Source of the DNA: Gemmatimonadaceae bacterium
GTDB taxonomy: Bacteria > Latescibacterota > UBA2968 > UBA8231
Assembly: GCA_002726335.1 (NCBI GenBank)
Contig: PBSR01000042.1
Coordinates: 1 to 30,190 of the forward strand
Length of the DNA: 30,190 nucleotides
Direction: 5' to 3'
The notes under the pieces were generated by a model. The model was given only the letters and a program-made list of their open reading frames with translations, ran no database searches and was not told where the DNA came from. The translations under genes and the position numbers were made by a program. Below are positions 1,445 through 8,170 of the stretch, in pieces (position 1 is the first letter of the stretch; each line of letters opens with the position of its first letter).

Positions 1445-2635
1445 TCAGTGGTGGTGGCCGCCGACATCGGCGGTCTGGAAGGCGGCCTTCACGTGCACGG
1501 CGCCTTCGGTGACGAGCTGCTCGCCGGCGTCCAGGCCGTGCAGTACTTCGACGCGGTCGCCGCCGCGGCGGCCCAGATCGACCTGGCGCGGTCGCAGGCC
1601 GTCGCCGTCGACGACGAAGACGTGGTCCTCGCCCTCGATGTCGTGCACCGCCGATGCCGGGACGCTGACCTGTGCCTCGGCAGTGTCCACCGCGATCCAG
1701 GCGGTCACCGGGAGACCGGGACGCCAGCGACCGTCGTTGGCCAGCGCCAGACGGACGACGGCTGTGCGGGTGTCCACGTCGATGACGGGGGCCACGTAGA
1801 CAATCAGGCTGTGGGCTTCGGACGCCTGGGCTATCGCGGCGCCGTCACCGATGGCCTGCACGCGCGCCGGTTGCCCTGGGCGCAGCCGTGACAGATCCTG
1901 CACGTGTGCCGCCAGGTCGACCCAGACCGTGTCGAGGTCGGCGACCAGGAAGGCGGGCTCGGCGACGGACAACATCTCTCCGAGGGTGGCGTGCCGGTCG
2001 ATGACGGTGCCGGAGATCGGCGCCGTCAGGTGGTAGTGGGAGATGTCGAAGCCGTCGTGGTGCAGGTGCGGGCCGTCGCGGCCATCGGTTGCCACCCCGA
2101 GGGCCTGCAGCATCTGCTCGGCGGCGCGCCGTGCGATGCGCGCCTCGGCCAGTTCCTGACGGGCCGCTAAGAAGTCGCGTTCCGACGAGATCTCCTCGGC
2201 GCGCAGGTCTCGCTCGCGAGCGTGGGTCGCTTCGGCCAGCGTCTCGCGCTCGCGGGCCGACAGCAGGAGCGCCCGGGCTTCGGCCAGGTCGCGACTGTCG
2301 AGGATGGCCAGCACGTCGCCGGCCTCGACGCGATCGCCGAAGGAACGCTCCACAGAAGCGACGACACCGGCGACGCGCGAGGTGACGTGGGCGGTTCGAT
2401 CCAGGTTGAGGGTTGCCTCGCCGAAGAGCCGCAACTCGACAGCGACGCGGCCCGGTGCGGCGACACCGGTAACGATGCCGAGGGCCTGCTGCTGCCGGGC
2501 TGAGAAATGCACGACCTCGAGTGGCTCCTCGTGTTCGTCATGGTCGTCGTGGACCTCCTCGGACAAAGTGGGGCCGGCCAGCGCCAGCGCGGCCGCGATC
2601 AGGGCCATGGGCGTGCGGATCGAGAAGCGTTTCAT
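1445..2635 (-). CDS. czcB: CzcB/CusB-type periplasmic membrane-fusion protein, His-rich
   Basis: This adaptor links the RND pump to the outer-membrane channel. The 396-aa product has a signal peptide (residues 1-25), then a short His/Asp/Glu cluster (VHDDHDEHEEP) typical of metal-type adaptors. Next come the first half of the lipoyl domain (GVVASVERSFGDRVEAGDVL), an alpha-helical hairpin, the second lipoyl half (YHLTAPISGTVIDRH) and beta-barrel and membrane-proximal domains. Another His cluster (PHLHHDG) lies in the hairpin region and the protein ends GGHHH, both plausible metal contacts. Its ATG overlaps the stop of the upstream outer-membrane gene by 4 nt (ATGA), so the two are probably translationally coupled. 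Confidence 0.93.
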   Translation of the reverse strand: MKRFSIRTPMALIAAALALAGPTLSEEVHDDHDEHEEPLEVVHFSARQQQALGIVTGVAAPGRVAVELRLFGEATLNLDRTAHVTSRVAGVVASVERSFGDRVEAGDVLAILDSRDLAEARALLLSARERETLAEATHARERDLRAEEISSERDFLAARQELAEARIARRAAEQMLQALGVATDGRDGPHLHHDGFDISHYHLTAPISGTVIDRHATLGEMLSVAEPAFLVADLDTVWVDLAAHVQDLSRLRPGQPARVQAIGDGAAIAQASEAHSLIVYVAPVIDVDTRTAVVRLALANDGRWRPGLPVTAWIAVDTAEAQVSVPASAVHDIEGEDHVFVVDGDGLRPRQVDLGRRGGDRVEVLHGLDAGEQLVTEGAVHVKAAFQTADVGGHHH

Positions 2636-3909
2636 CGGTCCGATCCTCCGTCGGGGTCGAAAGGGCCGCCGACGGCGCGGACTAGAGCATGCCGGGCGAC
2701 TTCGTGTCTGTGAATGGCCCGCACATGATCCATGCGTACCTCGGTGAGCGTGCGCTGCGCGTCGATGACGTCGACCTGTGGCGCCTGCCCCTGCTCCCAG
2801 CTGCGACGGGCCGCTTCGTACGCCGCCCCGGCTTCGCGCAGAAGCCCGTCGGCGAACAGCGCGAGGGTGCGGTGCGTCCGGGTGTAGTCACGGTAGGCGG
2901 TGTTCACTGCGAGCCTCGCCTGACGGCGCAGCTCGATCAGGTCGTTCTCGAGCTGGCGGGATCGGGCCCGAGCGACGGTGATGGCGCTGCGCTGCTGGCG
3001 CGCCGCCCACAGCGGTACCTCCACCGTGGCTTCCAGTCGCCACGTCGTCGGCGCGCCGGGTGCGTCGATGTCGTGACGGAATACTCCCAGGTCGACGGCA
3101 GGCAGCACGCCGACACGGGCGGCGCGAGTCGCCAGCTGGGCCGCCTGTTGATGGAGCACGGCGGCGACGATGTCGGGTCGTTGCGCCAGAGCGCGGTCAC
3201 GCAGAGCGGTCTCACTCCGTTCCAGGTGGTGCACCTCGAGCCTGTCGCTCAGCTCCACGTCGGCATCGAGAGGCAGATCGAGGAGGGTGTTGAGTCGCGC
3301 CCGGGCGGCCGCCAGCCCGTCCTGCCCGTCGGCGACGCGGAGGTTGGCGCGGCCGGCTTCCACCTCGGCACGCAGGGAAGCGAGCATGGGCGCTCCGCCG
3401 ACATCACGGCGGCGGCGCGCCATATGGGCCAGATCTTCGGCCTGTGTCAGGTCGTTGCGCGCCAGGGCCAACAGGTGTTCGGCAAGCAGGACGTCGAGAT
3501 AGGCGGTGGCGGTTTCCAGCGTGACATCGAGCCGGGCCCTGTCGACGTGTTCGAGATGCACCGCGTCGGCCGTCGAGCGGCCGGCGGCGCGTTCGTGGAA
3601 CCAGGACAGGGGCATCGCCAGTCGCTGGGTCAGGCCGATGCTGCGCTCCTCGTGGCTGCTGAGGTCAAAGGCGGACATCATGCCTTCGAACTCGAGCTCC
3701 AGCTCGGGATCGGCTGGCCCCAGTCGCGCTTGCGTCTCGGCGGTGACAACGCGCCAGCGAGCGGTGGCCGACTGGATGCGGGGGGCGACGGACACGGCCT
3801 GCGCGACGGCATGGTCGAGAGACAGCGGCGGTGTCACCGATGCGGACGAGGCCGAGAGCATCATCAACACGGCAATCAGGGCAGGCAATGGACCTGCATT
3901 GGGGTACAT
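2632..3909 (-). CDS. czcC: CzcC/TolC-family outer-membrane efflux channel
   Basis: This is the outer-membrane duct of the tripartite exporter. The 425-aa product has a signal peptide ending near residue 24 (LMMLSASSASV). It then shows the two-fold repeated, Ala/Arg/Leu-rich helical architecture of the OEP family: the first repeat begins at SLDHAVAQAVSVAPRIQSA and the second includes DRALAQRPDIVAAVLHQQAA. The ATG has an AGGAG 10 nt upstream. It is the first gene of the outer-membrane factor, adaptor, pump set and overlaps the adaptor gene by 4 nt. A 145-nt gap separates it from the small Cys-rich gene on the same strand, so that gene may be the true operon leader. Confidence 0.92.
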   Translation of the reverse strand: MYPNAGPLPALIAVLMMLSASSASVTPPLSLDHAVAQAVSVAPRIQSATARWRVVTAETQARLGPADPELELEFEGMMSAFDLSSHEERSIGLTQRLAMPLSWFHERAAGRSTADAVHLEHVDRARLDVTLETATAYLDVLLAEHLLALARNDLTQAEDLAHMARRRRDVGGAPMLASLRAEVEAGRANLRVADGQDGLAAARARLNTLLDLPLDADVELSDRLEVHHLERSETALRDRALAQRPDIVAAVLHQQAAQLATRAARVGVLPAVDLGVFRHDIDAPGAPTTWRLEATVEVPLWAARQQRSAITVARARSRQLENDLIELRRQARLAVNTAYRDYTRTHRTLALFADGLLREAGAAYEAARRSWEQGQAPQVDVIDAQRTLTEVRMDHVRAIHRHEVARHALVRAVGGPFDPDGGSDR

Positions 3910-4054
3910 GATCGGGCACTCCTGGCGCGGATGAGCGGATCACGCCTGCCGTCGTCGCAGCCGTGGCTGCAACGCGAGACGTGTACGGAATCGCAGTCTC
4001 TCCCGACCTGCCTCAGCGGCTAAGTGGGCGCGACCGGGTAACGCTCGGAGTGCT

Positions 4055-4547: not shown

Positions 4548-4600
4548 CTCGACCCGACTATACTTCTGCCACCGAATCCTGACCCCGCGGGAGCGTCACC

Positions 4601-5881
4601 ATCTCAGAGCCGTCGACACACATCGAAGACGATCAGCTGGTTCGGGCTGTTCTGGCGGGTGACCGTTCCGCCTTCGCAGCTCTCGTCGAACGGCACCAGA
4701 ACGCAGTCTTTGGGCTGCTGTGCAGTCGGGTCGCCGATCGCAGTGTCGTGGAGGATCTGGCTCAGGAGGCCCTGCTCAAGGCCTACACCGATCTGGGTGC
4801 GCTGCGCGAGGGGTCGCGTTTCCGCGCCTGGTTGATCGGCATCACGCGCAACGTCGTCGCTGACTGGGGGCGACGGGACCAGTCTCAGATCCGCCTCGCG
4901 GAGCAGGTCGAGAGGGAGAGTGTTGTCGAGGCGAGGCCGTCGACGCCGGAAGACGACCTCGAGCGTCGTGAGGTCGCCGAAGCGGTTTGGGCTGCGATCG
5001 AGCAACTCCCCGACAGCAGCCGCGAAGCAGTTCTACTGCACTACATCGGGGGATTGACTGACCGTGAGATCGCCGACACGGCCGGTATTTCCGCCAGTGC
5101 CGTACGCAGTCGCCTGCACTATGCCCGCCAGCGTCTGCGGGATCTCATGCTGCCTGTCGCCGAAGAGGTCCTCGTGCGACAGCGGCGGACACGACGCTTC
5201 ACCGGCGCGATCATGGCGGCTCTGCCGCTGGCGATCCCGCGCAAGGCCGCGGCATCCATTCTCTTCGGACTCACCGCAAAGGAGCTGTTCGTGACGGCTA
5301 CCGGAATCATCACCATCGTGGGCCTGCTGGGGATTCTCTGGTCTCGCCAGGAGTCCGACGCGCAGGAAATCGTACAGACCACACCACGAGTCCTGCGTCT
5401 GGCCACCGCTGAGCAGCGTGCTGCTGTACAGAGCGCTCTTGCTGAGGAAGGCGACACACCCGAACAAGGAGGAAGACACGTGAAGCTCGACATGCGGGCC
5501 GAGAAACTGTTCCCCGGATCCCTGAATGGCTGCCTGCGGCCGGCATTGCGTGCCGTCGGCATCGATTGGTCGCCGGATTTCCTGCGTGGCTATCTGGGCC
5601 GTGCCTTCGCTTTCTCCATGCGGCCGGATGGCGGCCACCTGGAGCACACCGACATCTTCGACTGGTCCTATTTCTGGGAGATGCTCGAAGCCCTGGACCT
5701 CCAGATGATCGACGCCGAGCGAAAGGGGGAGAGGGCGGTCTCCGAAGAGGAGTACGCGCAGGTGCAGAGGCGGGCATGGGACGCGGTCCGCAAGTCGATC
5801 GACGAAGGTCGACCGGCCATCTCCTGGCAGATGTACGACGCTTGGCCGCCAGGTCGAGAAAGGTCTCGTGCGTATACGTGA
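4601..5881 (+). CDS. ECF-like sigma factor fused to a TM segment and a truncated BtrH/C39-like domain; no canonical start codon
   Basis: This is a sigma-70-family initiation factor. Region 2 reads IEDDQLVRAVLAGDRSAFAA, then VVEDLAQEALLKAYTDL and FRAWLIGITRNVVADW. Region 4 follows (IEQLPDSSREAVLLHYIGG, then LTDREIADTAGISASAVRSR). Next comes a hydrophobic segment (VTATGIITIVGLLGILW), then about 150 residues including NGCLRPALRAVGIDW, YLGRAFAFSM and WDAVRKSIDEGRPAISW. These resemble the N-terminal part of BtrH/C39-like cysteine-fold proteins, with Cys as candidate nucleophile; this is judged by eye. The frame is open from 4583, but no ATG, GTG or TTG lies between 4583 and GTG 4748, which would delete most of region 2. 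ATC 4601 has GGGAG 7 nt upstream and is used as a tentative start. The last residues after about 5842 are unlikely to be native. Confidence 0.72.
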   Translation: MSEPSTHIEDDQLVRAVLAGDRSAFAALVERHQNAVFGLLCSRVADRSVVEDLAQEALLKAYTDLGALREGSRFRAWLIGITRNVVADWGRRDQSQIRLAEQVERESVVEARPSTPEDDLERREVAEAVWAAIEQLPDSSREAVLLHYIGGLTDREIADTAGISASAVRSRLHYARQRLRDLMLPVAEEVLVRQRRTRRFTGAIMAALPLAIPRKAAASILFGLTAKELFVTATGIITIVGLLGILWSRQESDAQEIVQTTPRVLRLATAEQRAAVQSALAEEGDTPEQGGRHVKLDMRAEKLFPGSLNGCLRPALRAVGIDWSPDFLRGYLGRAFAFSMRPDGGHLEHTDIFDWSYFWEMLEALDLQMIDAERKGERAVSEEEYAQVQRRAWDAVRKSIDEGRPAISWQMYDAWPPGRERSRAYT

Positions 5882-6404
5882 ACGAATGGTAGACGGTCAG
5901 CCGCAGCAGCGACTCTCGAGAGTAGGCGCGAAAGCTGCACGAGACATCGTGGTAGCTGTGGCCCGTCATTCGGCTGACGAGCTTGGCAACCCGCCGATTG
6001 CCCCACTTCTTCACCCTCGGCATCTCGGGGATCAGCTTCGGGTCCATGAAGCGGCTCGCCGTGCAGACGAGTGCGGCGCCACTGAGGATCGGAGCGATGA
6101 GCTGGGGGATGTGGTCGGCGTTGAACTGGCCGTCCGCGTCGATGGTCACCAGCAGATCGGCACGGACCTCGAGGGCGTGGCGAACGAGGCTCTGGAATGC
6201 AACCCCGACACCGGAGTTGCGGGCGTGCCTTACGACTGTTGCCCCGGCCGCTTGTGCCAGAGACCCGGTGTCGTCATCCGAGCCGTCGTCGTCGACGACG
6301 AGGTCAATGGAGTCGACACCGCCGACTTCCTTCGGCATACGCGCGATGACGTTGGCAATGGTGGCGGCCTCGTTGTAGGCAGGAATGCCGACCAGCAGAT
6401 GCAT
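5310..6404 (-). CDS. Family-2 glycosyltransferase (polyprenyl-phosphate sugar synthase-like), 3' part replaced
   Basis: A GT2 enzyme of the DPM1-like type transfers a nucleotide sugar to a lipid-phosphate carrier at the cytoplasmic membrane. The N-terminus MHLLVGIPAYNEAATIANV, the nucleotide-site motif VVDDDGSDDDT, the metal motif TIDADGQFNADHI and the YHDVSCSFRAYS segment are all intact. The ATG at 6404 has GGGAG 4-5 nt upstream; 15 further upstream codons have no family resemblance. After HETFLDLAAK (about position 5841) the frame runs on to 5310 as Arg/Pro-rich sequence antisense to the sigma-factor gene. Only 5841-6404 therefore looks like genuine glycosyltransferase, roughly 188 aa against 230-330 aa for relatives. 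Truncation, deletion or a chimeric join explains this. Confidence 0.75.
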   Translation of the reverse strand: MHLLVGIPAYNEAATIANVIARMPKEVGGVDSIDLVVDDDGSDDDTGSLAQAAGATVVRHARNSGVGVAFQSLVRHALEVRADLLVTIDADGQFNADHIPQLIAPILSGAALVCTASRFMDPKLIPEMPRVKKWGNRRVAKLVSRMTGHSYHDVSCSFRAYSRESLLRLTVYHSFTYTHETFLDLAAKRRTSARRWPVDLRRSTCGPRPMPASAPARTPLRRPPSPPFARRRSSGGPGLRASPRNRTSRRCRCAPGGRHPAAWRKRRHGPDSHAGNPATNRCRRHAMPAAGSHSGIRGTVSRPACRASRVFLLVRVCRLPQQERSVQQHAAQRWPDAGLVVWSVRFPARRTPGETRESPAGPRW

Positions 6405-7420: not shown

Positions 7421-8170
7421 ATGCCTGAATCCCCCCTGCGACGCGCCAGACTGCACGAGCGGGAGTTGCTCCTCGGAGCCGCAACCGATGTCGTCGAAGC
7501 GTCCTTCGGGCAGGTCGTGTTGAATCGTGACTATCCGGGGGCGCTGTCACACAACGTGGCCCTTGTGGATGCAGAGGTGACGGCGGAGGCGCTGTTGGCC
7601 GAGTCGACGGCGATTCGGCAGCGAGCCGGCGTTGACGGGTGCGCCATCTGGGTCGATCAGAAGCGGTGGGCGCAGAGCCTGTCACCTGGCCTCCGAGCCG
7701 CCGGATACAGACCGTTGACGGATCTCTACATGGCCCTCACAGAGTCGGCGGAGAGGACGTCGGACACGGCCGTCGAGATGGCTGGTTTTGAAGAGATCCG
7801 CCCGACCATCGAAGCGTACTGGCGGCAGACCGGCAGAAGCGCCGAGGGTGCCAAAGCCCTGGCCGGCAGGGCGACGACCTACCAACAGGCCTGCGAGTTG
7901 AGCTTCTTCGGCGTGCGCGACGGGGACACGTACGTCTCGCATTGCGAAGTCTATCGACGCGGGGCCACTGGACAGATCGACTCGGTGATCACCGCCTCTA
8001 CCTGCCAGGGCAGGGGGTACGCGTCCGCCGTCGTGATCGAGGCCTGCCGATACCTGAGGAACGCCGGCTGTGATTTCATCTTCCTCTGCACCGATGCCGA
8101 GGACTGGCCGCAGCAGCTCTACCGGAGGCTGGGGTTCTCAGATATCGGCACATCCCTGGCGTTCGAGTGA
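7421..8170 (+). CDS. GNAT-family N-acetyltransferase
   Basis: This 249-aa protein carries a C-terminal GNAT fold that would transfer an acetyl group from acetyl-CoA to an unknown amine. Motif A is seen as STCQGRGYASAVVIEACRYL near residues 190-210, equivalent to the Q/R-x-x-G-x-G/A pyrophosphate loop. A following strand and the terminal DWPQQLYRRLGFSDIGTSLA match motif B. The N-terminal half (residues 1-110) looks like a degenerate second GNAT-like lobe, as in tandem-GNAT proteins. It starts at ATG 7421, 57 nt after the lipoprotein gene on the same strand, so co-transcription is possible. Substrate cannot be deduced. Confidence 0.85.
   Translation: MPESPLRRARLHERELLLGAATDVVEASFGQVVLNRDYPGALSHNVALVDAEVTAEALLAESTAIRQRAGVDGCAIWVDQKRWAQSLSPGLRAAGYRPLTDLYMALTESAERTSDTAVEMAGFEEIRPTIEAYWRQTGRSAEGAKALAGRATTYQQACELSFFGVRDGDTYVSHCEVYRRGATGQIDSVITASTCQGRGYASAVVIEACRYLRNAGCDFIFLCTDAEDWPQQLYRRLGFSDIGTSLAFE

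Follow-up and report, generated by a model that had tools for sequence, protein, structure and literature searches.

Can a sigma factor carry its own membrane-linked sensor in one chain, and what kind of domain would do the sensing? The question is raised by an open frame at positions 4583 to 5881 of a 30,190-nucleotide stretch of DNA (contig PBSR01000042.1 of assembly GCA_002726335.1, Gemmatimonadaceae bacterium), the whole of which is referred to here as the window. Sigma factors of the extracytoplasmic function (ECF) type are most commonly controlled by a separate membrane anti-sigma protein (PMC8999054). A first-pass annotation had read the frame as an ECF-like sigma factor fused through a transmembrane (TM) segment to a cysteine-fold domain of the BtrH-N/C39 type. 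We find that the fusion of sigma factor and BtrH-like domain is real, because the order of sigma regions, TM segment and domain is kept in two intact relatives, P0004 and P0006.

A predicted ECF sigma factor with a membrane helix

The window frame (protein P0001) scored 101.1 bits, against a cut-off of 42.9, with the NCBIfam model TIGR02937 (sigma70-ECF), which assigns it to the ECF superfamily. Sigma regions 2 and 4 each match a Pfam model above the curated cut-off, and the two matches are separated by a gap of 32 residues with no region 3, as in ECF sigma factors. By domain content the frame is an ECF sigma factor, predicted to bind RNA polymerase and to have promoter activity. Behind the sigma regions lies one hydrophobic 19-mer (residues 235-253, mean hydropathy 2.21), so that both the regions and the helix of the first reading were recovered. 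Also present are the three motifs from which the C-terminal domain had been recognized, and they recur in the homologs with the same domain order (P0004 and P0006). Outside sigma regions 2 and 4, P0001 gave no Pfam match at E up to 1. The features of the frame are as follows.

4583-5881, plus strand: damaged sigma-TM-BtrH-like gene (P0001), a stop-to-stop open frame
4682-4882, plus strand: ECF sigma region 2, residues 34-100 (Pfam PF04542, Sigma70_r2, 1.3e-12, over the curated cut-off)
4979-5137, plus strand: ECF sigma region 4, residues 133-185 (Pfam PF08281, Sigma70_r4_2, 1.9e-13, over the curated cut-off)
5138-5284, plus strand: extension behind region 4 reaching the membrane (FTxAxMxALPL ... 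GLTxKEL), kept in P0004 and P0006 by alignment
5285-5341, plus strand: single predicted TM helix, residues 235-253 (hydropathy; aligned hydrophobic segment in P0004, P0005, P0006 and P0007)
5342-5482, plus strand: linker from TM helix to domain (alignment; pLDDT below 50 at residues 280-300 of the P0004 model)
5483-5845, plus strand: N-terminal third of the BtrH-like domain, with NGCLRPALRAVGIDW, GRAFAFSM and SIDEGRPAISW (alignment to full-length relatives; family fold)
5531-5533, plus strand: Cys codon for residue 317, which falls in the column assigned to the papain-family catalytic Cys (computed position; alignment column)

Intact relatives and distribution of the fusion

A search of the protein collection with the window frame gave 22 matches, among them the longer homologs that the first-pass annotation had proposed to look for. 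P0004 (660 aa) is 57% identical over 96% of the query and P0006 (656 aa) 48% identical over 94%; both continue for more than 200 residues past the point at which the window frame stops aligning with them. A profile of the C-terminal domain found at least 19 proteins and a broader profile at least 109, these family sizes being lower bounds from searches that scored the 7994-7997 candidates sharing most words.

Far from never co-occurring with sigma regions, the domain is joined to them in 19 of the 118 database rows of a domain tree, in which each row holds at least 200 residues of the domain. A member of locus L087 makes a twentieth fusion, and the window copy is uncounted; the tree counts exclude matches shorter than 200 residues, P0001-P0003 and the sigma-only hits P0009-P0024. 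A hydropathy peak above 1.4 lies between sigma and domain in 16 of the 20 fusions, P0062 and P0089 included (2.1 or more in five, 1.49-1.82 in 11). The remaining four (P0060, P0081, P0090 and P0117) have no TM segment. Among the 98 rows without sigma, a hydrophobic segment precedes the domain in 49, is absent in eight and could not be judged in 41.

With distant and fragmentary matches included, 19 of 64 genomes in the G001 phylum (records named Gemmatimonadetes or Gemmatimonadota) gave matches to the domain, as did 18 of 84 in the G004 phylum (records named Candidatus Poribacteria). The genome-level check for fusions covers matches fetched as loci; among these, one-frame sigma fusions of 623-670 aa came from G004, G075 and G141, all of the Poribacteria phylum. 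Sigma frames of at least 500 aa, counted by eye, make up 42 of the 63 region-2 rows listed for G141 (the best 63 of 83 matches) and none of the 23 listed for G001 (the best 23 of 36 matches).

These counts bear on whether the join could be an assembly accident or a functionless one-off chimera. The window lends that idea something, as a sharp junction near 5840 cuts two convergent genes and related copies are broken. The join nevertheless recurs, both in the 19 of 118 family rows and in the long frames of three Poribacteria-phylum genomes. Furthermore, the ratio of nonsynonymous to synonymous substitution rates (dN/dS) between the window and the related copy L001 is 0.38 over 223 codons running from behind sigma region 4 to the junction. 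This value is an average over both branches, with the sigma regions outside the compared stretch, and the part from behind region 4 to the junction was therefore under constraint. We regard an accident as very improbable, and for the fusion as such it is largely refuted.

The C-terminal domain has a predicted BtrH-type fold lacking the usual triad

The AlphaFold model of the BtrH-like domain has a pLDDT of 92.5. All six Foldseek matches under 0.001 were AziU3, CcbD or CtaG structures, as were the fourteen best VIA entries for the P0061 domain model, and a papain-like half and a helical bundle are present in the models of both P0061 and P0004. Far from being unrelated to the papain/C39 fold, the predicted structure thus best matches papain-fold structures of the BtrH type, in line with the first guess of a BtrH-N/C39-type fold. 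In alignment A5, which covers 85 of 140 collected protein ids, Pfam matches at E up to 0.01 point the same way, albeit weakly: Peptidase_C39_2 (PF13529) matched 14 of the 85 members and BtrH_N six (best 0.0017, none over the cut-off). As modelled, the domain is of the BtrH type, a papain fold with a C-terminal helical bundle.

Sequence searches were less telling. No BtrH_N match was obtained by Pfam in P0001, P0004, P0006, P0007 or P0008, and the domain family has no Pfam family of its own. The PDB sequence search with family profiles gave no significant relative: there were no matches with A6 at E up to 1 or with L054 alone, five weak matches to coiled or designed proteins with A7 (E 0.19-2.5), and cruzain at E 1.1 with A5. 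For this reason, residues were mapped onto CtaG by spacing and secondary structure. PDB entries for CtaG variants bear the names C11A, H128A and D144N, which gives spacings of 117 and 16. The matching places in P0061 are C31, W149 and H165, located by these spacings and by the first helix (28-38), a strand start (149-156) and the next strand (161-166). The triad columns of the family are likewise assigned by spacing and secondary structure.

Over the 85 members the first (Cys) column holds C in 24, T in 25, A in 18 and S in eight; the second (His) column holds W in 83, Y in one and a gap in one; in the third (Asp) column, R stands in 70 members and H in 11; and H fills the next column in 74. 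The Cys-His-Asp triad of BtrH-like papain-fold proteins is therefore not kept across the alignment, nor are the catalytic Cys and His of C39 peptidases, assigned by spacing to the same columns. With the His position occupied by Trp in 83 of 85 members and Cys kept in 24 of 85, these columns lack an ordinary catalytic triad, and the usual catalysis is not supported. The cysteine-hydrolase or acyltransferase-like module of the first-pass annotation is thus not supported as a working enzyme.

An outer domain that still works as a Cys acyltransferase or hydrolase, with the sigma factor reporting on catalysis or being controlled by it, is in our estimate unlikely. For its fold neighbors CcbD and CtaG, the PDB titles include Cys mutants, as expected of Cys enzymes. 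The clade of the window gene keeps the Cys in 14 of its 15 aligned members and the His after the third column (P0004 residue 474) in 14 of 15, and the window copy has the Cys as well. That clade comprises 18 tree rows, 15 of them in A5; of the other three, P0032 has the Cys, and P0008 and P0037 start behind it. Set against this are the near-universal Trp at the papain His position, the single Cys among the 19 sigma-fused members of A5 (in P0004) and the fact that the window copy stops before the His position.

The domain on other transducers and its exchange between sigma factors

BlaR1 is a case of an enzyme fold repurposed as a receptor, and the BtrH-like domain also occurs on proteins of the BlaR1 type. 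In locus L085 (3150-6796; G001:C88, from the genome that also holds L001), a BlaI-type gene (PF03965, 8.1e-25) directly precedes a gene for a 1077-residue M56 protein. In this protein the M56 BlaR1 domain (5.6e-29) is accompanied by two tandem BtrH-like domains that replace the usual sensor. P0131 is a further M56 fusion, and P0078, P0121 and P0129 have a stretch resembling the M56 tail before the TM segment (best E-values 4e-11 to 1e-8). The likeness to BlaR1/BlaI thus lies in the domain family found on an M56 protein after a BlaI-type gene; the window gene differs in that its transducer is a sigma factor and not an M56/BlaI pair.

Locus L087 (18-16999; G141:C56) holds five ECF-TM genes within 17 kb, which are 69-87% identical in the sigma-TM half and differ in their C-termini: WD40, an unassigned long module, BtrH-like, M61-like and one cut by the edge of the stretch. 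Pfam was run on four of the array genes, and in three of them the sigma regions exceeded the curated cut-offs. The sigma part of the WD40 gene was recognized with a purpose-built hidden Markov model (HMM), the Pfam view giving the best 25 of 60 families. Up to residue 299 the BtrH-like member matches its M61-like neighbor at 87% identity; its domain, from residue 304 on, also shares 87% identity with that of the sigma-less P0058. Similarly, P0004 and P0006 share 62% identity in sigma and 35% in the domain, whereas 66% identity links the domain of P0006 to that of the sigma-less P0050. On the domain tree, a quick tree with long branches in which gains are indistinguishable from losses, the sigma label changes at least 13 times. 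On the sigma tree, whose backbone is weak, fused sigma parts fall in several places, with five changes, three of them forced by starred branches. As judged from these comparisons, the C-terminal module is exchanged between sigma modules as a cassette.

The same array could be taken to mean that the sigma-TM half serves as an all-purpose anchor for C-terminal modules that ride along as passengers outside the inner membrane, only loosely linked to sigma activity, since one nearly identical half carries WD40, unassigned, BtrH-like, M61-like and a fifth C-terminus. The BlaI-M56 pairing of the BtrH-like domain points instead to signalling, and sigma regions still exceed the curated cut-offs in the window as well as in three of the four array genes on which Pfam was run. 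We consider such passengers decidedly unlikely.

Further arrangements of the domain were observed. Stubs of an N-terminal module stand before the TM segment and domain in L001 and L002 (of sigma) and in P0078, P0121 and P0129 (of M56), as if decay affected the N-terminal module and spared the domain. Among ten long frames scanned, six (in L032, L033, L034, L048, L023 and L043) are DUF362 proteins fused to distant BtrH-like domains. In L094 (4183-6564; G020) a separate ECF gene, which has HEAT repeats, comes right after a distant BtrH-like gene; the sigma of this ECF gene groups with the TM-less fusions P0081, P0090 and P0117. The first residues of P0038 (645 aa) resemble the middle of a BtrH-like domain (..YCWGLVVGYN..) and may reflect a tandem duplication. 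A sigma gene adjoining the sigma-less domain gene is not a general rule: an HMM built from fused sigmas found none in the flanks, up to 8 kb, of L001-L005 and L007-L009.

A candidate one-component membrane sensor

We give about an even chance to the explanation that the intact gene encodes a one-component membrane ECF sigma factor with an outer, triad-less BtrH-like receptor, its sigma part being released or activated on binding. The ECF sigma part would lie in the cytoplasm, followed by one TM helix and an extracytoplasmic BtrH-like domain, and the fold without its Cys-His-Asp triad would be a receptor for a ligand or a partner protein. The sigma part would be kept at the membrane until it is cut loose or rearranged. 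Binding would lead to its release or activation, most likely by stepwise proteolysis as in IutY, described below. Sidedness, ligand binding, the release or activation of sigma, the protease and the regulon are the parts of this explanation that we infer. The first-pass annotation had likewise suggested a sensor that releases its own sigma part, which is plausible by analogy with IutY.

Several points weigh against such a receptor. Damage is seen in the window copy and also in its relatives L001 and L039, both of them broken; L039 is the only fusion, and not an intact one, among the loci fetched from the 64 genomes of the G001 phylum. The outer location of the domain is predicted from hydropathy and is not universal, because four of the 20 fusions have no TM segment and the peak is modest (1.49-1.82) in 11 of the other 16. 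Forty-one sigma-less rows carry no sign of export either way, several of them starting at the domain. A remodelled active site is possible, because the Cys stands in 14 of 15 aligned members of the clade of the window gene and a His lies beside the Asp column in 74 of 85; that clade may put its Cys to an unusual use. Finally, no ligand, target promoter or protease was identified, protease genes not having been searched for.

The TM-less fusions, in particular, show that the layout can vary, and in them the domain might control sigma directly. The main task of the domain might be to inhibit, or offer a docking surface to, its own sigma or another protein, in effect as a built-in anti-sigma factor that senses no small molecule. 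Domain and sigma would both be cytoplasmic in those four of 20 fusions. The distant domain gene of L094 lies just upstream of a separate ECF gene of a lineage that is fused in P0081, P0090 and P0117, and inhibitory C-terminal extensions are described for ECF41 (PMC8999054). We nevertheless rate this as fairly unlikely: a hydrophobic segment parts sigma and domain in the other 16 fusions, and M56 and DUF362 proteins carry the domain with no sigma to inhibit.

Beyond the single gene, and at somewhat less than an even chance, the membrane receptor may be one instance of a retired BtrH-type acyltransferase fold that serves as a portable receptor cassette on two unrelated kinds of membrane transducer, ECF sigma factors and BlaR1-type M56 proteases, in Gemmatimonadota and Poribacteria. 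The cassette would be exchanged by recombination in tandem arrays of membrane-tethered sigma factors, and it may recognize acylated or peptide-linked small molecules once bound by the ancestral enzyme.

Relation to known systems

IutY of Pseudomonas putida, the proven example of this layout, combines a cytosolic ECF sigma and a periplasmic anti-sigma domain in a single membrane-spanning polypeptide that is processed by Prc and RseP (PMC5411451), and removal of part of its outer domain leaves the sigma factor active without the signal (PMC5411451, PMC8999054). The fusion described here resembles IutY in having sigma, one TM segment and a further domain in one chain, although the outer placement is in our case an inference. 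It differs in that the outer part of IutY is an anti-sigma domain working with an outer membrane receptor, whereas here it is BtrH-like. An IutY-like sigma would have an outer anti-sigma domain of the FecR or CSS type; Pfam matched no such domain in P0004 or P0006 at E up to 5.

The actinobacterial groups ECF48, ECF52 and ECF53 (for example SCO4117) likewise have an ECF sigma factor joined at its C-terminus to a TM segment and outer modules (PMC8999054). Their C-terminal parts contain a zinc-finger anti-sigma part and, in SCO4117, also a carbohydrate-binding domain (PMC8999054), neither of which was matched here; specifically, Pfam gave no zinc-finger anti-sigma match in P0001, P0004 or P0006. 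The fold neighbors AziU3, CcbD and CtaG differ in another way: identity to them is 8-15%, and the present family mostly replaces the Cys-His-Asp positions and is joined to transducers.

Membrane-tethered sigma fusions were thus already known. The novelty is confined to the BtrH-like sensor module, because the TM-linked fusions of ECF48, ECF52, ECF53 and IutY have been described. In the literature searched, which lacked part of the ECF literature, no sigma factor with a BtrH-like or C39-like module was found described. If the receptor explanation is true, sensing and promoter choice would be united in one chain with an interchangeable module derived from a dead enzyme, and arrays of the L087 kind would amount to nature's own tests of receptor swapping. 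The freed sigma part could then serve as a direct reporter for finding ligands. The associations also give a first functional hint for a domain family that lacks a Pfam entry.

Damage to the window copy

Two convergent genes of the window are cut near position 5840, by rearrangement or misassembly. The features concerned are the following.

5838-5865, no strand assigned: junction zone in which the homology of both convergent genes stops, a misjoin or rearrangement (blastn, tblastx, ends of GT2 homologs)
5841-6404, minus strand: GT2 glycosyltransferase gene, 3' end cut by the 5840 junction (PF00535, 3.3e-20; comparison with six homologs)

Similarity between L001 and the window domain ends at 5838 by blastn and at 5848 by tblastx, and the last residues of the frame, PPGRERSRAYT, have no counterpart in relatives. 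The C-terminal domain is thus truncated, which the first-pass annotation had not noticed: by comparison with P0004, about 217 residues, or two thirds, are missing. On the other side, GT2 homology ends at window coordinates 5841-5865 in five of the six homologs and at 5811 in the sixth. These homologs have frames of 317-406 aa, and the window GT2 protein can be aligned to them only to its own residue 180-198.

The start of the sigma gene is affected as well. In this frame no ATG, GTG or TTG occurs ahead of the GTG at 4748; of the near-start codons listed, 4583-4748 contains ATC and CTG only. As 4748 falls inside sigma region 2, the window copy has no ordinary start that would include the whole region. 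With this start missing and two thirds of the domain gone, the window copy has probably lost the ability to sense. Of the related copies, L001 retains the TM segment and domain with little of sigma left, while in L039 the sigma frame has fallen into three separate pieces, behind which lies the end of a domain that has lost part of its length.

The same truncated form occurs in the protein collection as P0003 (11 member sequences on three contigs, the longest of 199,625 bases). Tetranucleotide composition shows its largest contrast in the window at 3500-4000, not at 5840. When relatives of the flanking genes were sought in one phylum, the best for the left-hand gene (outer membrane efflux) was 35% identical, in G008, while the right-hand gene (enolase-like) had relatives of 86% identity in G068, G008 and G067. 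Both flanking genes have relatives in the one phylum covered by this search; the window may still be chimeric.

Neighboring genes

No clear regulatory target was found among the neighbor genes. A xylose-isomerase-like gene lies directly upstream of the fusion or domain gene in L086 (3396-4226), L093 (2797-3642) and L094 (3186-4019), the label resting on the Pfam family AP_endonuc_2 in L086 and on sequence likeness in L093 and L094. In the window, genes of the CusB/HlyD type and for outer membrane efflux occupy 1445-3909 on the minus strand, divergent from the sigma gene.
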